Shown here: positions 20,763-29,446 of the stretch, piece by piece | How the letters are laid out: each line of letters begins with the position of its first letter | How positions within the stretch are numbered: the first letter of the stretch is position 1 | Assembly: GCF_900187365.1 (NCBI RefSeq) | Contig: NZ_FYDG01000021.1 | Coordinates: 1-33,033, forward strand | Source of the DNA: Rhodoblastus acidophilus | Lineage (GTDB): Bacteria > Pseudomonadota > Alphaproteobacteria > Rhizobiales > Beijerinckiaceae | Reading direction: 5' to 3' | Length of the DNA: 33,033 nt | Position numbers and translations under genes: made by a program | Notes under the pieces: model-generated | Told to the model about the DNA's origin: nothing | Databases searched by the model: none | What the model saw: the letters and a program-made list of their open reading frames with translations, nothing else

Positions 20763-21217
20763 TCAAGCTGCAGTCGGCTGGCTGTTCTGAATGGGCTCCT
20801 TGCCGAAGCGAAAGTCTGTTTCGTCGTTCCACATACGATGGAGCACGACCGCGAGCTTGCGGGCAACCGCGACGCGGGCCCGAGCCATGCCGCGATTTTT
20901 GGCGATCTTCATGCCCCATGCTCGCAGGCTTGACCATTTCTGGCTGCGCACGAGCAAGCTATGCGCCGCCTATAGAGCGCGGTGCGCGCGAGTTCGTCGC
21001 CGCATCGGCTGATTTTGCCTTGGATGTCTGTTTCGCCCGACTGGTAGCGCGCTGGCGTGAGACCAAGATGGGCGCCGACGTCGCGCGAATGCCGGAAACG
21101 TTCCGGTCGATCAATTGTTGCGCGATATGCAAGAGCGGTGATCGGACCAACGCCTGGAGCGCTCATCAGCCTGCGGCAGATTTTCTCTTGGCGGACGATA
21201 GCAAGAACTTGCTTGGT
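20763..21217 (-). pseudogene. IS110-family transposase, C-terminal half, frameshifted
   Basis: The Transposase_20 (helix-hairpin-helix) domain is clear: RRLMSAPGVGPITALAYRAT, VGAHLGLTPARYQSGE and GKISRCGDELARTALY. Near 20975 one base is missing: after ALY the expected EAAHSLLVRSQKW continues in the neighbouring frame to the TGA at 20763 (MARARVAVARKLAVVLHRMW). The N-terminal DEDD domain is absent, replaced by an antitoxin-like ORF in frame. Confidence 0.85.
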
Positions 21218-21445
21218 CAGAGCCTGCACGAACGCCTCGCTGTCTCGCACCGAAAGCGCCAGATACTGATGTTCCTCGATGGCGCGCCGCGCCGCGTCCT
21301 GCAAACTTGTCAGAACGAAATCCGTCACTGAGCGTCCTTGCAAGGCCGCGGCGTGTTCGATCAGGCGCTTTTGATCGACGGTCACGCGCGTCTCGAGGCG
21401 CTCTGCCCTGAAGCGGCTCACCGCGGGACTCTTTGCTTCAGCCAT
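20909..21445 (-). CDS. DUF1778 (TacA-like) antitoxin fused in frame to an IS110 tail
   Basis: The ATG at 21445 has GAGGGAGG 7 nt upstream. Residues 1-76 match a DUF1778/TacA-type antitoxin: a ribbon-helix-helix (RLETRVTVDQKRLIEHAAAL), then GRSVTDFVLTSLQDAARRAI and the typical end RDSEAFVQAL. From residue 77 the frame enters IS110 DNA without a stop and carries its helix-hairpin-helix domain up to a frameshift, ending at 20909 (178 residues). In family pairs a GNAT-type toxin gene follows the antitoxin; none is seen here, so it was probably displaced by the IS. Whether the chimera is expressed is unknown. Confidence 0.65.
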   Translation of the reverse strand: MAEAKSPAVSRFRAERLETRVTVDQKRLIEHAAALQGRSVTDFVLTSLQDAARRAIEEHQYLALSVRDSEAFVQALTKQVLAIVRQEKICRRLMSAPGVGPITALAYRATIDRPERFRHSRDVGAHLGLTPARYQSGETDIQGKISRCGDELARTALYRRRIACSCAARNGQACEHGA

Positions 21446-21675
21446 TTTGCAGCCTCCCTCTGCCGACTGATGCACGGCCATTGGCCGCACATCGTAAGAC
21501 AACAGATGCTGCATTTTTCAATGAGGACGCCGCCGTCACGGCCTATGCATAACTTTACAACTTGTCTTGGCCCTAAGAAGCCATGCTTCGTCGCGTCGGA
21601 CGCTGGACATGTCATGCTGTCTGCCCACGTCGCGAGAATGCTCTTCGACGATCAGAACACTGCGATGAATGTCGG

Positions 21676-22562: not shown

Positions 22563-23003
22563 TCACTGACCGCCGCACAGCTCGGCCGCTTTTCGCCAAT
22601 CCTCCCAAATGGCCGATTGTGCGTCCTCCAAGCCTACTTGGCCTTGACAGACCAAGGATGAGAGGCACCTTTCGACGACGTCCTTATCACGCGCCTCTTC
22701 GATCGGCTGCAGCGCCAAATTCTGTTGATCGACGACGGCCCCGCCAAGCGCGAGGGGTATGATGTGGTCAAGCTGGTAGCGGTTTCGGTGGTCGATCGGC
22801 TCGCCAATCGCCGCCAACATTTTGGACTTGATCCGCTTCGTTTCGGAAACGTAGAGACGGATGCTTTGCGTCCAGCCAGGCGTGCAGATGGTCGTCGCGA
22901 TGGTCTCTTGCCTGACCTCCAAATTGAGCGCGGGTCTTTTTACGTCCTCCGAATAAGAGGCGGATGCGAACAAACATCCGGAAATGAAGATGAATGAGCG
23001 CAT
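22563..23003 (-). CDS. Exported HNH-nuclease-like protein
   Basis: A 146-residue protein with a signal peptide (MRSFIFISGCLFASASYS). ATG 23003 is preferred to the TTG at 23012. The mature part has HRNRYQLDHIIPLALGGAVV followed by NLALQPIEEARDKD, an HNH-like core (D-H at DHI, N at NLALQP) seen in small periplasmic proteins annotated as HNH nucleases. The third metal-site residue is not obvious, so nuclease activity is uncertain. It converges on the Cys-rich gene with only 7 nt between stops. Confidence 0.6.
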   Translation of the reverse strand: MRSFIFISGCLFASASYSEDVKRPALNLEVRQETIATTICTPGWTQSIRLYVSETKRIKSKMLAAIGEPIDHRNRYQLDHIIPLALGGAVVDQQNLALQPIEEARDKDVVERCLSSLVCQGQVGLEDAQSAIWEDWRKAAELCGGQ

Positions 23004-23133
23004 ATCTTTCAAGCGGCCTCGGTGGCTGCTTTAGCCTGTGCGAGCTTCTGCTTGCCCCTGTCCTCAGTCCGAACTCCAATATGGATGACCTGCGTCCGCG
23101 TTGTTTTATCAACGCATTGTCGCTTCCCTCTGT

Positions 23134-24858
23134 TCATAGCCCATCCCATTCGGGAATTTGCTGGTCTCGCCAAAGCCGGAGCCTTTGAAAACGCATTCCT
23201 TCAAAGATGTCGCCCAATTCCAGGCCGTCGTTTTGCCAAAGCGTCGGAAGGCTGGTTTTCGCTTCGCTGATGAACTGCGGCGCCAGATGGTCGGCGCGCT
23301 CATAAGCGTCGCGCCACCACGACAATACGCTGTCGCGGCTCCGGCTAAGGAGATCGGCCGTCGGAAGCTTGTCCTTTTTCTTCTTCTGATTCAAGGCTCG
23401 ATGCGAAGGCATCAGATTCCAGAGGTCGCCGCACGGCCAAGCCGACCATGGAAAAGCGTGGTCCATGTCGAGCGTCTGAGTGGTCAATTGTTTTCCACTC
23501 CACACGCAATATAGCGAGCCCTGGTCCATCAGGGACAACGCGCGCGTTCTCGCGATCGCCACGTCACGGTCCGGTTCAATCCACGTCATGGCGGCCGCGA
23601 TTGCGCCGTCATTTAGAGTTCTTGTCATGCGCTGGGCATAGCCCTTGATGATCCGGATCCATTCCGCGACGATCGATGGCTCAATCCAGGCGCTGTAGCG
23701 CTGCATCGCGCGCCAGATGTCGCGCGGCACGAGCAGCGCGCCGAAGGAAGCGAGATAGGTCGCGTCCAGCGTCAGAGTTCCGCACGACCAGGTTTTCGAG
23801 CCGGCGACATAAGGAAAAATCGCCCCCCCTTTGGCGTAGGTCGTGAAATGTGCTGGGTTGTCGCGGATCGTGACTGCGGCCGCCTTGAGCGCGGAATGAA
23901 CGATCTTCGTATCCTGCGATGAAAATGTCGCGCCTGGCCGCAGATTGATGGCCGGCACGACGCCGGCCAGAATGGCGCGCGTGGATTCCTTGCAAAAATC
24001 GAGACGTTCGCCGCCTTTGATGTTGAGGCTGCTCTGCGGCAGATCGGCAGCGAGCAGCGGCAGATAAAGCCTGAGCCAATTGAGCGCGACGAGCCCCAGC
24101 GGCACGGCGACATGATCGTCGCCCTGATCCTTGGCCATGCCGGCGGCGCCGTCGGCGGCGCGGCAGAGCGCCCGCAGCAGTCCAAGCTTGTACGTCGACG
24201 TCTTGCTGTCGTTGAGGATGATGTGGCGCAAAATCGGCAAGGCGTTGGTGCCGTCGTCCGGCAAGCGCAAGGCGATCTGATGCCATTGGACGTCTTTGCG
24301 CCCAAGCAGATCGGCAACCTTCTGACGCGGCAGCACGACGAGGCCATGGGCGCGCGCAAGGTTTTCGATATCTTCAACATCAACGGCGTGAAAGCCGCGG
24401 CCTTGGTCTTCGACTCCGTCGCGGATCGTCATCACGATCAGACCGCCCGATCGGGTCAGCGAGACCAGCTTGCGAAATGCGCGTGTCCGGTCGGCCGCTG
24501 GCAAGTGCATCCAGACGGCGCCAAGGTGGACGACGTCGGCGGAAACGCCCAACGCCATCGTGGCCGTCAATGACGGCAGGCGGTCGCTCAGCCATTGTAT
24601 GGCCGGCGTGTCGTGGCGCTTCTGAGCTTCGACGCGCATGTTCTTCGATGGCTCCACTGCGATGACGCGGTAGCCTTTCGAGGCGAACCACGCGGCGTCG
24701 CGCCCGCTGCCGGCGCCAATGTCGATCACCAGGCCAGGAGCCTCCGGCAGTAGATGCGAGAACCAACCGTGCAGGTTTTCCGGCTGCAAGCTTTCATATT
24801 GATCGACGACCGCGCTCGCGTTGCGATCGTACCCGGCGATGGTCTGGTCGATTGTCAC
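23134..24858 (-). CDS. SAM methyltransferase - HNH fusion protein
   Basis: A 574-residue protein. The N-terminal 160 residues form a class I SAM-dependent methyltransferase: motif I is VIDIGAGSGRD (44-54), with the acidic end of strand 2 at AVEPSKN. No DNA-methyltransferase catalytic motif (NPPY or PC) is seen, so the methyl acceptor is unknown. The middle (about 200-440) is of unknown fold. The C-terminal part has an HNH-like site: CVWSGKQL (451-458), DMDHAFPWSAWPCG (464-477) and NLMPSHRALNQKKK (481-494). Its start overlaps the 3' end of the upstream HNH gene by 4 nt. The two form an operon that looks like a defence or modification-linked nuclease unit. Confidence 0.75.
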   Translation of the reverse strand: MTIDQTIAGYDRNASAVVDQYESLQPENLHGWFSHLLPEAPGLVIDIGAGSGRDAAWFASKGYRVIAVEPSKNMRVEAQKRHDTPAIQWLSDRLPSLTATMALGVSADVVHLGAVWMHLPAADRTRAFRKLVSLTRSGGLIVMTIRDGVEDQGRGFHAVDVEDIENLARAHGLVVLPRQKVADLLGRKDVQWHQIALRLPDDGTNALPILRHIILNDSKTSTYKLGLLRALCRAADGAAGMAKDQGDDHVAVPLGLVALNWLRLYLPLLAADLPQSSLNIKGGERLDFCKESTRAILAGVVPAINLRPGATFSSQDTKIVHSALKAAAVTIRDNPAHFTTYAKGGAIFPYVAGSKTWSCGTLTLDATYLASFGALLVPRDIWRAMQRYSAWIEPSIVAEWIRIIKGYAQRMTRTLNDGAIAAAMTWIEPDRDVAIARTRALSLMDQGSLYCVWSGKQLTTQTLDMDHAFPWSAWPCGDLWNLMPSHRALNQKKKKDKLPTADLLSRSRDSVLSWWRDAYERADHLAPQFISEAKTSLPTLWQNDGLELGDIFEGMRFQRLRLWRDQQIPEWDGL

Positions 24859-25760
24859 GAGAAGCGCTCACGATGGCGCTGAAGATAAGAGCGGTTTGGC
24901 CAGTGCGCTTCATTTTTCGGCAGGATAATGCCGCTCATTTGCCGCTCGAACAGCCGCTGCAGCTCGCTGGGAATCTTGTTGTGCGAGATAAGCAGCCGGT
25001 AGTCATCCGATATCCGGATCAGGCCGCGGTCAAACAGCCAATGAACTGTGCCCGACAGGGCAAGGCCGCTCTGGACCACGTCAGGACCGTCTCCTTCGAC
25101 GGGCCAGATGTGCGCGGCTTGCACTTCCACCTTGCCGCCGCCGTTGACAATTTTGAGTCCGGTGATGGCGCAGGTGTTGTCGTAGGCCGTGCACACGGCG
25201 GACGGGAACGCAGCGTCGCGGATCTTGCGATTGAGCAGGATTTGCCTTATTTGGCGCTCTTGCGCTTCCTCCGGCGCGTCGATCAGCGCGCGCGTGTCAG
25301 CGTCGCAGTGATCGGGATCGAGTTCGAGCTTTATGGCGTTCGCCGGGTCGAAGACGTCACTGAGTCCTGCTTTGACGATCGCCGCGAAGTCCGCTGTCGA
25401 GACCGGCCGCACCGAACGTCCCTGGATTGCGGCGCCTCGGCCTTTCTGCGGAGCGCTCCGCATTATCTCTTCATAAGGTTGCCCGTCAGCGCGGTTTTGC
25501 GGGACGGCGCGGTCAAAGTCGAGAAAGCCGTCGAGCAGCGCGTAGGACGAGCCCGGATCCTTGGGGTCGGGTTCAAGCGCCTTCAGCCGGGCGACCGCGA
25601 AATAACCTGGGGCGCCGTCACCCCTGCGAGGCTTACGAAAAAGAATCCAGTCGCCAACGGCCGCCTCCGCGACCTTCAAGTAATTGTTGGGGAAATGATA
25701 TCGCCGGGGAAGAAGGTCGTCATAACCAGAGTCCGGCTTCGCATCGAAAATGATCGGCAT
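24855..25760 (-). CDS. HNH_2-type endonuclease with unknown N-terminal domain
   Basis: A 301-residue predicted nuclease. The ATG at 25760 (MPIIFDAKPDSGYDD) is listed; a TTG at 25778 with GAAAGG upstream would add 6 residues. The N-terminal domain (YHFPNNYLKVAEAAVGDWIL, GYFAVARLKALEPDP) has the look of a PUA/EVE-type base-reading domain, which is an inference. The C-terminal HNH_2 core has CAITGLKI, VQAAHIWPVEGDG (H217) and TVHWLFDRGLIRI (H240, D244, R245), all expected residues. It overlaps the methyltransferase-HNH gene by 4 nt and is the first gene of the pair. Confidence 0.8.
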   Translation of the reverse strand: MPIIFDAKPDSGYDDLLPRRYHFPNNYLKVAEAAVGDWILFRKPRRGDGAPGYFAVARLKALEPDPKDPGSSYALLDGFLDFDRAVPQNRADGQPYEEIMRSAPQKGRGAAIQGRSVRPVSTADFAAIVKAGLSDVFDPANAIKLELDPDHCDADTRALIDAPEEAQERQIRQILLNRKIRDAAFPSAVCTAYDNTCAITGLKIVNGGGKVEVQAAHIWPVEGDGPDVVQSGLALSGTVHWLFDRGLIRISDDYRLLISHNKIPSELQRLFERQMSGIILPKNEAHWPNRSYLQRHRERFS

Positions 25761-25941
25761 CTGGGTCGCTTCATGCAATGTCGCCTTTCATTTTTGTTGA
25801 TGTGTCGGCGAAGGTCAACGCTGAAAGCCGTGAAGCGCGATCCCTTCGCGACCTATTGAGTGTTTTTAGGCTCCGAGCCGGCATTCATGGCTTGGCTTAT
25901 GTTCGCCTCTCGTTCTAAGTTGCAGAACTTGGCTTTGAGAA

Positions 25942-26853
25942 GTGAATTTCGTGCTCAGCACCATTGTCGTTCCCAATCGCAATTCCTGGCGTCATTGCCG
26001 CGCAAAAGCGGCCCTGGGCGGCAAGCACGGCCTGAAACTGCTGACGATCGATCAGCTTGCGGCGCGTCTGGCTGGCGGCTTTCTTCAACCCATTGATCCC
26101 GAGCACTTGGCCACGGCGGTCAAGGAGTCGATCGGCCTGGGGTTGGGCGAACTCGACGCGATCAAGACCTTGCCCGGTTTTCAGCGCGCCGCAGCCAACA
26201 GTCTGTCGAAAGCCTGGAGCGCCGGCCTTAGTCTGGAAAACGAGGCGAAGGCCGCCATCGACCCGGCGACCCGGACCAGACTGGAGGCGCTCGCGCTGTT
26301 GGAGCGAGAAGTGCTGGCGCGGTTGCCCAAGAACGAGCTGACGCCCAACGATCTCGTCGCGCGCGCGCTCGGGCGCATAGGTTTCGCGCGCGTCCTGTTC
26401 GGGCCGATCGAGGTTCAAGGCCGAACGGAAATGTCCCCGGTCTGGCGCCCGCTTCTGGCTGCGCTTGCCAGAGTAACCGAGGTCGCATGGGTCGCCGAGG
26501 CGCGGCGCGTTCCGCCCTGGCTGACGGAAATGGACGTGAAAACCCTGGAGCGCGCCCCTGAACGACCCGCGCGACGCGCCATCTCCTGCGCCAGTCCCCG
26601 GCATGAAATCCTGGAGGCGATGCGTTGGGCGCGCAGTCTCCTCGCCAAAGGGATCGGGGCGCACGAGATCGCCATCGCGACGGCGTCTCCGGCCGGGTGG
26701 GACGATCATGTCCTCGCGCTGGCCGCGACCGCCAACATCCCCATTCATTTCATTCACGGCCGCGCCGCGCTCGATAGCGCCGAGGGACAACTCGCGGCCG
26801 CTTTGGCCGAGGTTCTTCTGCGCGGCTTTCCGCAGAGATACTCTCCGCCTTGA
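25942..26853 (+). pseudogene. AddB/PD-(D/E)XK-type repair protein, N-terminal part only
   Basis: A GTG at 25942 opens MNFVLSTIVVPNRNSWRHCR, typical of the AddB-like proteins with an inactive helicase start and a C-terminal PD-(D/E)XK nuclease. Further matches are GLKLLTIDQLAARLAGG, EILEAMRWARSLLAKG and ANIPIHFIHGRAALDSAEGQ. Homology ends at about 26840, then 4 stray codons lead to a stop. The nuclease domain is gone. The break coincides with the 3' end of the opposite ABC ATPase gene, so one recombination event cut both. It has no role as it stands. Confidence 0.7.
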
Positions 26854-29446
26854 TGTCGGCGATGAGCTGCTCGATGAAGGCCAGGTCCGACTCGAATGCG
26901 GCTGGATCTGGGGTTGAGACGGTTTCTGACGCCGGATTGTCATGGCTGTGCGTATTGGCTTTTGTCATTCCATCATGGAATCGGATCGCGAGCGCGTCGG
27001 ACAGATGCACCAGGCGCAGCTTTTGAGTCTCAATCCTGTCGACGCCGCGCCGGACCACGTCGCAAAAGATGTGTTCTTCTACGAGGCGCTCATAGCTGTC
27101 TCGCAGGCGCCCATAAAGGTGCTTCACCTTGAATTCGTAATCGGACGGGCTCGACGCGTGGAGCTTCTTCAATGGCGAGAAGTCGTTCCGGATTCGCGCG
27201 AGGCGCTTAGTGACGCTCAGCCCTTTCCACGACACCCCGGCGGGATCGACCTTGCCAGCGTTGGCGCTGTCGGCGAAGAGCGCGATGGTTTCGGTCGTTA
27301 CGCCGAGATCATCGGCTTCTCGGCATAAATCGTTGAAGAAGATCAAGTCGTGCGTAAAGACAATTACCTGGCGCTTATGCGCCTCGGCCACGATGCGGGC
27401 CGCGACCTTCAATCCGCGATCACGGTCCAAGGATGAAACGGGATCGTCGATGACGATCGGACCCGCTCCTTCCGTTACAGCGATTTCCGTTAGAAATGCA
27501 GCAAGCGCGAGCGCGCGCTGCTCGCCTTCGCTGAGAATTTCGGAGGTCAATTTTGTTAGCGTGGTGCCTGGATTGGTTTGGAACGCGGCCTTGGTTTGTC
27601 CGCTCTTTCGCGCTAAACCAACCTTGAGGTGCGTTATTTCCAAAGTTTTACGTTCGAATTCGAAATGGTCTGTCACAATTTTCGTCAAATGCGTGTCGAC
27701 GAGTTCATTCGCCTTCTGAGTAATGCCCTTCGTCTGAACCTCAGCAAGCGCTGCGGTATATAGCGCATCCTTCTTGAGAAGATCACGGCGTTTGATCACA
27801 CGATCACGACCTGCCGCGAGGATCTTGCGATCGGCGAGCTCAGCCCGCTCGGTCTCCAGCTTCGCGCGCTCACCACTCTGATCAGCCTTCGCCAACGCAT
27901 CGGCCTCGGCGGATAGCACCGTCGACAAGTCTTGCAGGGCGCCATGCGGGGAGACCAGAGCTGCGACGGCTAACGGGGACGGTGGCGTCTCAGGTGTCCG
28001 AAGCGAGGCCAGAGCGGTCGCACGTCTGGCTTCTACTTCCTTCTTGAAGGACGTAACCGCATCTGCGAGTTCCGCATTGCGTTTACGGATCTGTTCGAGC
28101 CGGGTTGCCCAATCCTTCGACGCGAATATCTCGACCTGAGGCAGCGACGCGATCGCCTGGGTGACCGCAGTTTCAGCCTGGTCAGCAGTTGCAGCGAGCG
28201 ATCCGCTGACGAACGCCTGAAAGCGGCCCATGCGGTCCGACGCTTCAGCGCTGAGCGGTTGCTGGCAGAGAACGCAGGTTTCGGTCGCCTCCGGCGTACG
28301 GAGGACCGGAAACTCACGGCCGGCATAGGCGTCCGTGATTGAATAGTCGCGGGCAGCAAGCCAGAGCCGCCGCCAAGTTTCACCACCAACACCAGGGAGA
28401 GGTTCACTTGAGAAAAGGTCGGCGGCCTTCGTGCCCGCAGCTGTCCGCGCGTCGATGGACTGCTGCTTGAGGTTACGATATCCGTCAAGCTGCTTGTCGC
28501 TGAATGCCTGACCAAGGCTGGCAGATTCGGACGCTAGGTTTTTGACCCATGTGGAAAGCGCGGTCACGTCGGCAGCTGACGCGGTGTTAGCGGCGAGTAT
28601 ACGGGTCAGCTCGTCGATGCGCTTCTCGTCATCAGGTGAAAACGTGGCCGCAGCGTCGATCTGCGCATCTGTCGTCTTGCCGTTGAGGCCGGCATAGAAG
28701 GTCTGGGCCTTTGTCGTTCTGGGTGTCTCGAAGGCAACGGTAACAAGAGCGACCTGATCCGTAATGGGCTTACGCTCAGCTTCCAGCTTATCCCTGAGGG
28801 TGAGGCAAAGCTCATTCAGTTTGTGAGGCAAGGCCAAGCCGAAAGGAAGAAACTGGATCTGGTTTCCCCCATCGACATAAAGTTGTGCCGCATTGCTGTC
28901 GAACACTGCGACCTGCAGCAGGGCCTCCGACGCGGGCGCGCCAGCGGTCCAGGGCACGACGACATCACCGCCGCCCAGGTCGACGATAATTTCGGCTTCT
29001 TGCGGCCCCCCGCTTGATCCGTAGACGTCAGCGAGCACCTTGAGCTTGGCTGGATTGTCAGTGCGGGTGCGACAGGCTGTGCGGAAGATTCGGACGAAGC
29101 CGCTCTTGCCGCTGCCATTGCGACCATACACAATCGTCATGCCATTGGGTGTGAACGACAGCGCGGCGGCCGGCACGAGACGGTTGACGTTCTTGACGTT
29201 GCGAATACCTTTGATCTGAAGAGGCGATCCGCTCGCGACAGACGCAAGGTGAGCTTTGCTCAATGGGGTCGGCGCCTGGGGCTTCGCGGCCAGAGGAAAA
29301 CCTGCTTTCTCTTTGATAAGATTAAGCAATTCTGTTTCGTCTTGTCCGCTCAGGCTGGCCGCCCCTGCAAGGCGACGTAGGGCATCTTGGCGCCATGGGG
29401 CCAGCTTGGTCGCAGACCAATCCAGGATTTCTTCGACCGCCCCCAT
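26750..29446 (-). CDS. Zn-hook ABC ATPase of the RloC/AAA_13 type
   Basis: An 898-residue Rad50/SMC-like ATPase. It has an N-terminal Walker A GRNGSGKSG (108-116), then coiled coil with a zinc-hook-like CVLC (C391, C394), a second coiled coil, signature LSEGEQRALA (638-647), Walker B and D-loop PIVIDDPVSSLD (663-674) and H-loop FTHD (697-700). The C-terminal region (YGRLRDSYERLVEE, RRGVDRIETQKL, MTKANTHSHDNP) is shared by AAA_13-type defence ATPases; an anticodon-nuclease triad as in PrrC/RloC is not clear. From about residue 868 (26843) the frame reads antisense of the AddB-like gene, giving an alien basic tail of 30 residues. ATG 29446 has GAGAGA upstream. Confidence 0.8.
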   Translation of the reverse strand: MGAVEEILDWSATKLAPWRQDALRRLAGAASLSGQDETELLNLIKEKAGFPLAAKPQAPTPLSKAHLASVASGSPLQIKGIRNVKNVNRLVPAAALSFTPNGMTIVYGRNGSGKSGFVRIFRTACRTRTDNPAKLKVLADVYGSSGGPQEAEIIVDLGGGDVVVPWTAGAPASEALLQVAVFDSNAAQLYVDGGNQIQFLPFGLALPHKLNELCLTLRDKLEAERKPITDQVALVTVAFETPRTTKAQTFYAGLNGKTTDAQIDAAATFSPDDEKRIDELTRILAANTASAADVTALSTWVKNLASESASLGQAFSDKQLDGYRNLKQQSIDARTAAGTKAADLFSSEPLPGVGGETWRRLWLAARDYSITDAYAGREFPVLRTPEATETCVLCQQPLSAEASDRMGRFQAFVSGSLAATADQAETAVTQAIASLPQVEIFASKDWATRLEQIRKRNAELADAVTSFKKEVEARRATALASLRTPETPPSPLAVAALVSPHGALQDLSTVLSAEADALAKADQSGERAKLETERAELADRKILAAGRDRVIKRRDLLKKDALYTAALAEVQTKGITQKANELVDTHLTKIVTDHFEFERKTLEITHLKVGLARKSGQTKAAFQTNPGTTLTKLTSEILSEGEQRALALAAFLTEIAVTEGAGPIVIDDPVSSLDRDRGLKVAARIVAEAHKRQVIVFTHDLIFFNDLCREADDLGVTTETIALFADSANAGKVDPAGVSWKGLSVTKRLARIRNDFSPLKKLHASSPSDYEFKVKHLYGRLRDSYERLVEEHIFCDVVRRGVDRIETQKLRLVHLSDALAIRFHDGMTKANTHSHDNPASETVSTPDPAAFESDLAFIEQLIADIKAESISAESRAEEPRPKRPRVVPRRYRARRGRE

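Follow-up and report, generated by a model that had tools for sequence, protein, structure and literature searches.

VcaM4I (PMC7897488) and TagI (PMC6212794), of EVE-HNH and SRA-HNH layout respectively, are presented as characterised modification-dependent nucleases in the parts of these papers drawn on here. We have analyzed a stretch of 33,033 nucleotides from the alphaproteobacterium Rhodoblastus acidophilus (contig NZ_FYDG01000021.1, positions 1 to 33,033; the window) in which a relative of such PUA-HNH nucleases, P0001, is followed by P0002, which belongs to a nuclease family so far undescribed. In P0002 a class I S-adenosylmethionine (SAM) methyltransferase is joined through a mostly helical domain, here called TYK, to an HNH_4 nuclease motif. 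An earlier note had read the two as open reading frames (ORFs) that share four nucleotides and suggest a coupled, restriction-like unit. The overlap (GTGA) is confirmed by the sequence, and the domains that had been proposed were recovered with Pfam, HNH_2 in P0001 and Methyltransf_25 plus HNH_4 in P0002 (Table 1). Both frames have full-length relatives, at about 33–55% identity, and are therefore not chance ORFs. P0001 could also start at a TTG at 25778 (ORF 24855–25778), although the ATG at 25760 fits the starts of its relatives better. As shown below, the pairing of fusion and HNH_2 gene is far above chance but optional. The reading that we favour, tentatively and as falling slightly short of an even chance, is that the window carries an optional two-nuclease anti-invader module.

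Table 1. The gene pair and its domains in the window.
Feature	Positions	Strand	Evidence
P0001, HNH_2 nuclease with EVE/YTH-like PUA N-terminus (ATG start, 301 amino acids)	24855..25760	-	ORF, Pfam, starts of relatives
PUA/EVE-like putative modified-base reader domain of P0001, residues ~9-140 (TTG numbering)	25359..25754	-	AlphaFold2 and Foldseek
HNH_2 domain of P0001, residues 203-255 (TTG numbering)	25014..25172	-	Pfam E 2.5e-9; profile match
AGC codon of Ser237, where the H-N-H motif has Asn	25068..25070	-	HNH_2 alignment
Overlap of P0001 end and P0002 start, GTGA (stop TGA and start GTG), 4 nt	24855..24858	-	Sequence
P0002, methyltransferase - helical TYK domain - HNH_4 fusion (GTG start, 574 amino acids)	23134..24858	-	ORF, Pfam, AlphaFold2
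Class I SAM methyltransferase domain of P0002, residues 1-198	24265..24858	-	Pfam Methyltransf_25 E 5.7e-11 at 44-139; Foldseek
Mostly helical TYK domain of P0002, residues ~199-440	23539..24264	-	AlphaFold2 helices, conservation
HNH_4 (Cas9-type) nuclease motif of P0002	23362..23508	-	Pfam E 3.4e-5 at residues 451-496; conservation

A scan of genome contigs with the C-terminal part of P0002 gave 353 relatives, of which the best 80 by similarity were kept, so that these loci (numbered L) are not a random draw, and some of their contigs end near the fusion. Nearly all span methyltransferase and nuclease, the exceptions being broken or contig-end copies. A six-frame profile scan, with a profile derived from first-sample neighbours and therefore apt to miss other HNH_2 types, found an HNH_2 gene in 11 of the 80 loci (L047, L048, L055, L072, L095, L096, L102, L107, L111, L113 and L114). 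In all 11 it directly adjoins the fusion, with gaps of up to about 300 bases, and no HNH_2 was found elsewhere in the flanks (up to 7 kb) of the 80 loci. Damaged copies are counted among the 11, namely L114 and L107 with an internal stop and L055 and L096 without an intact N-terminus. The chance expectation for that flank is about 0.05 HNH_2 genes, assuming independence and the density given by 10 Pfam HNH_2 matches among 56 alphaproteobacterial genomes (the window's own left out). At a tenfold density 11 paired loci would still be very unlikely, provided that the loci are independent.

When the neighbours of 91 loci were clustered, HNH_2 proteins (14 loci, plasmid ones included) were the sole recurrent specific neighbour. 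The next cluster, with 11 loci, was read as ABC transporters, and the only clusters present in more than four loci were the fusion, the HNH_2 proteins and proteins read as ABC transporters. Among 132 first neighbours other than HNH_2 (142 minus eight HNH_2, one fusion fragment in L069 and one ORF overlapping the HNH_2 gene of L114), no Pfam family appeared in more than two, nor did any PADLOC family at E<=1e-10. The locus scans called ORFs with a simple rule that took the longest first.

The HNH_2 partners differ at their N-termini, whose types are named by motif where possible. The YHFP type is found in the window, L048 and L113, IFKP in L035, L036, L102 and L107, YWWVNQ in L072 and L095, and THKPWF in L111 and L114. 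An EVE-like partner with a type IV restriction-type start is present in L047 and, decayed, in L055 and L096, and a sulfur-binding-like type lies beside methyltransferase-less TYK-HNH genes in L040 and L041. The orientation of the HNH_2 gene relative to the fusion also varies. A FastTree tree was built from 82 rows, of which 13 are paired; on it pairing requires at least 11 changes, be they gains or losses (22 of the 78 inner branches lie below 80, and the paired L096 was omitted). The GTGA junction of the window recurs in L102, and L113 has an overlap of one nucleotide (TGATG). L107, read by eye, shows a gap of one base after the TAA of the HNH_2 gene's own frame, plus an earlier internal stop. 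Two Azospirillum plasmids have one gene between HNH_2 and fusion.

TYK-HNH genes without methyltransferase occur on plasmids of cyanobacteria, Deinococcus and Hymenobacter, and in five of the eight plasmid loci read they are paired with HNH_2. Four of these (L040, L041, L142 and L145) belong to a near-identical Tolypothrix/Nostoc lineage in which the two genes are divergent with a small gene between them. In the fifth, from Deinococcus (L144), the HNH_2 gene overlaps by 8 bases a TYK-HNH that has an in-frame stop. No HNH_2 partner was found at L039, L141 and L143. Stand-alone methyltransferases of the P0002 family had HNH_2 in 0/29 short and 0/12 longer loci, and neighbour clusters of the latter reached at most 5 of the 12; a long apparently fused frame among them, in L010, looks like a stop-to-stop artefact. 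The association with HNH_2 thus seems to follow the nuclease part of P0002.

Built on 8 rows, the AlphaFold2 model of P0001 can be used only over residues 1–140 or so, with ten-residue means of pLDDT, the predicted local confidence, between 61 and 91; the quality of the HNH half is too poor for use. The best Foldseek matches of the N-terminal domain were 2p5d, 2eve and 2hd9 (E 4e-4 to 9e-4, prob 1.00), and further ones were DrmA, human THYN1 with 5-methylcytosine DNA, the archaeal McrB N-domain and YTH domains (YTHDF2). Pfam EVE gave no match in P0001 at E<=1. The idea that this domain reads modified bases is supported at the level of fold (an EVE/YTH-type PUA), not of function. A profile of seven relatives of P0001 matches, in the HNH half, VcaM4I (6yex, E 1.6e-7) and TagI (6ghs, E 7.5e-6).

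The model of P0002 (71 rows) reached a pLDDT of 90.5 and a predicted TM-score of 0.76. Conservation was read from an alignment of 71 rows (A3), 10 of the 80 loci being omitted for want of a frame of 540–660 amino acids in the simple ORF call. Of the SAM motif, D46 and G48 are kept in 71/71 and E69 and D92 in 67/71; the HNH_4 residues D466, H467, N481, N490 and K494 are invariant (71/71), as are K219, T222, W391, E393, P394, E399 and W400 of the TYK domain. Methyltransferase-TYK-HNH_4 is a stable family. A Pfam scan of nine C-terminal parts, that of P0002 and those of eight relatives, gave HNH_4 and no other family. The TYK domain was not placed by a profile search of the PDB, which returned chance-like globin matches and weak ones to Cas9 (E 0.31) and an HNH endonuclease (E 0.71). 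Foldseek with the whole model did not place this domain either, the matches listed being only methyltransferases or long poor alignments.

If the preferred reading of an optional two-nuclease module holds, P0001 would act as a modification-dependent endonuclease, its EVE/YTH-like PUA domain binding a modified base and its HNH_2, of the TagI/VcaM4I kind, cutting nearby. P0002 would be a second nuclease able to act alone, in which the undescribed helical domain carries the HNH_4 and this Cas9-type HNH_4 cuts or nicks DNA. The fused SAM-dependent methyltransferase would regulate or protect, for instance as a SAM sensor or through methylation of some unusual substrate, be it protein or nucleic acid. 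DNA would be the presumed target of both nucleases, which would cooperate, and defence is the most likely role of the pair. The anti-invader side of the unit proposed in the earlier note is in this way retained, defence itself being what we infer.

Several observations weigh against such a module. HNH_2 was not found in 69 of the 80 fusion loci, some on contigs that end close to the fusion, nor beside any of 14 intact fusions in a sample of the window's phylum, its own fusion not counted (regions of 6.9–12.5 kb). The readers differ and the orientation varies, so that neither one mark nor one operon logic holds throughout. Most of the 25 Pfam families listed for first neighbours are ordinary and the fusion is therefore not generally seen in defence islands; a general embedding in such islands, for which no formal enrichment test was made, is not borne out by the first neighbours. 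P0001 keeps H223 and H246 of the canonical H-N-H residues, which are incomplete in the window copy, where Ser237 takes the place of the motif Asn kept in 14/14 other rows of the HNH_2 alignment. In TagI this Asn is described as non-catalytic, yet all three residues as essential, from conservation and mutagenesis, in the part of the report used (PMC6212794), so that the window copy may be weakened by Ser237. Finally, the relation of P0002 to Cas9-type HNH is weak at the sequence level (E 0.09 against a Cas9 model, versus 2.9e-6 for the relative in L192), while the HNH_4 motif itself resembles that of Cas9.

Other samples agree on how loose the partnership is. Three fusions of the class sample (two apparently the same loci as L045 and L061 of the 80) had no HNH_2, none was nearby in seven other plasmid fusion records read (L031–L034, L037, L038 and L146), and no fusion was present in ten P0001-type neighbourhoods from plasmids and viral contigs (L131–L140). 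In the phylum sample, L190 has a frameshifted fusion with a YHFP-type remnant directly downstream, and L191 a fusion remnant with a YHFP-type gene, this one intact, at a distance of about 3 kb. With 0/14 fusions paired and 0/10 P0001-type neighbourhoods holding a fusion, the partnership has to be considered optional, and on these frequencies, together with 11/80, we reject a fixed two-gene system. What stands of the coupled unit claimed earlier is an adjacency far above expectation; as a fixed arrangement it does not stand. The proposal that rare adjacency would speak against the pair is answered in both directions, adjacency being a minority by frequency and well beyond what chance would give.

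The best surviving alternative is that two independent, solitary anti-invader genes lie side by side by chance, with selection and transfer in common and no mutual action. We consider it rather unlikely, but it would account naturally for families that live mostly apart in the counts just given, for an orientation that is not fixed and for partner N-terminal domains that differ. It is harder to reconcile with HNH_2 genes that appear only at the adjacent position and never elsewhere in the flanks, with overlapping junctions at distant positions of the tree, and with the lack of any other specific family recurring beside the fusion.

P0002 might also be a one-polypeptide restriction-modification enzyme, protecting its host by an unusual self-methylation while its HNH cuts unmarked DNA, with P0001 as an add-on against modified DNA. 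Methyltransferase and nuclease do share a single chain with both active sites conserved, and most loci are without a constant partner gene. DNA methyltransferases have at motif IV either (D/N/S)PP(Y/F/W), the NPPY type, or the C5 PC type. No (D/N/S)PP(Y/F/W)-type motif was found in the methyltransferase of P0002, where the position reads DVVHLGAVWMHL (around it W116 is kept in 69/71 and H118 in 62/71). By motif we reject a classical DNA methylase, and the absence of DNA-methyltransferase motifs that the earlier note had pointed out is borne out as far as motif IV goes. As the nearest solved structures found by Foldseek are small-molecule, protein-N-terminus and tRNA methyltransferases, and the nuclease part occurs without the methyltransferase, we regard this explanation as improbable. 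A protein of Escherichia phage phi458 (OP434518, 2935–3501) is 33% identical to the methyltransferase domain.

In favour of the anti-invader reading, the family is patchy in its presence, with plasmid-borne and decayed copies. Matches to P0002 were found in 6/385 genomes of the window's class, the Alphaproteobacteria, and in 18/398 of its phylum, the Pseudomonadota, both figures including its own genome and some remnants, and in 35/397 genomes of its order. At least 80% of P0002 is present in nine plasmid records. One genome of Belnapia arida has several fusion copies, a single one in L073 and two in L043, of which one is apparently split. Fusions on plasmids of Roseomonas and Azospirillum (L031, L032 and L035) have genes of the His-Xaa-Ser system nearby, either hxsB and hxsC or hxsD.

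A role outside defence, in which P0002 would be either a methyltransferase of metabolism that has acquired a nuclease or a selfish gene of the homing type, is quite improbable in our view. It agrees with the mostly ordinary first neighbours and with several stand-alone family methyltransferases on large, chromosome-size contigs among neighbours also read as ordinary. However, except for the window's own genome no reported match in the order extends past residue 203 and hence out of the methyltransferase part, and plasmid carriage, broken copies and the HNH_2 association favour a conflict role. Least credible of all, despite the overlap of putative writer and reader genes, is that the P0002 methyltransferase marks invader DNA and the PUA domain of P0001 reads the mark, since HNH_2 seems to follow the nuclease part and a single mark is not expected with several N-terminal types and paired methyltransferase-less TYK-HNH.

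Going further than the optional module, one could imagine a methyltransferase-TYK-HNH_4 family served by interchangeable HNH_2 readers (EVE-like YHFP, IFKP, YWWVNQ, EVE-like with type IV-type start, THKPWF and, with methyltransferase-less relatives, sulfur-binding-like), with a second nuclease that stays constant and a non-classical methyltransferase acting as a trigger or in self-protection; this is speculative and we think it unlikely. In any case a widespread and unnamed nuclease architecture, combining a methyltransferase, a new helical domain and a Cas9-type HNH with conserved active-site residues, is recurrently adjoined by reader-type HNH_2 nucleases. If the cooperation is true, it would represent a restriction module whose readers can be exchanged and whose methyltransferase belongs to none of the DNA-methylase classes.

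The description of the region as rich in defence and mobile genes was fair for the ORFs scanned, which include an AAA_13 gene of PDC-S06 type, a tyrosine recombinase and an ORF whose end is of IS110 type. The AAA_13 ATPase (26750–29446, minus strand) matches PADLOC PDC-S06 at E 5e-169 and has a zinc-hook-like CVLCQQ motif; considered as a third member, it was not among the clusters present in more than four of the 91 loci, though these were not searched for AAA_13. Next to it an ORF on the plus strand (25942–26853), seemingly truncated at the end of the AAA_13 gene, weakly matches TIGR03623, "probable DNA repair protein" (E 0.0018). On the other side of the pair (22563–23012, minus) a small protein resembles HNH, with a weak HNH_5 match (E 0.037), and apparently has a signal peptide. 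A single ORF at 20909–21514 (minus) matches both TacA1 antitoxin and an IS116/IS110 transposase end, and is perhaps a junction.

Compared with described systems, P0001 resembles VcaM4I, as far as the portion of the source drawn on describes it, in having a PUA-superfamily N-terminal domain and a C-terminal HNH within about 300 amino acids. It differs by the missing Pfam EVE match, by the Ser in place of the motif Asn and by overlapping a methyltransferase-HNH gene. With TagI, on the same limited basis, it shares the layout of base reader and HNH, the reader being SRA in TagI and EVE/YTH-like in P0001. The HNH half of P0001 scores 79.5 bits with NF045808, a model of phosphorothioate-DNA-binding HNH nucleases, among which we presume ScoMcrA to be. 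The Tolypothrix neighbour in L040 scores 128 bits over nearly its whole length; both are, however, below the cut-off of 180, and the N-terminal half of P0001 has no match. In one genome (G996, L192/L196) a broken TYK-HNH is located between TIGR04096, a phosphorothioation-associated methyltransferase, and DndBCD, with a P0002-family methyltransferase two genes beyond the TIGR04096 one. TYK-HNH was present in none of five further TIGR04096 regions, some clipped by contig ends, and the Dnd link is a lead only.

P0002 shares with Cas9-type HNH the D-x-D-H ... N ... N ... K motif, and Pfam HNH_4 is over its cut-off, but its HNH is joined to a methyltransferase via an undescribed domain. A PADLOC scan of three window proteins matched its methyltransferase part (residues 25–175) to mad2 of MADS (PDLC04134, E 6e-14), although over positions 276–420 of a 492-position model only; the AAA gene nearby also gives a match to mad3 (4.6e-15), yet fits PDC-S06 much better. 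From classical type II and IIG restriction-modification P0002 is set apart by having neither an NPPY-type nor a C5 PC-type motif IV; its methyltransferase and nuclease are fused throughout the best 80 (bar broken or contig-end copies), and yet methyltransferase-less forms exist. A literature search over titles and abstract starts gave no description of a methyltransferase-HNH_4 fusion. A loose parallel to P0002 is provided by the DCD-methyltransferase fusions that a nuclease gene follows, as they appear in the part of the report drawn on (PMC7641849).

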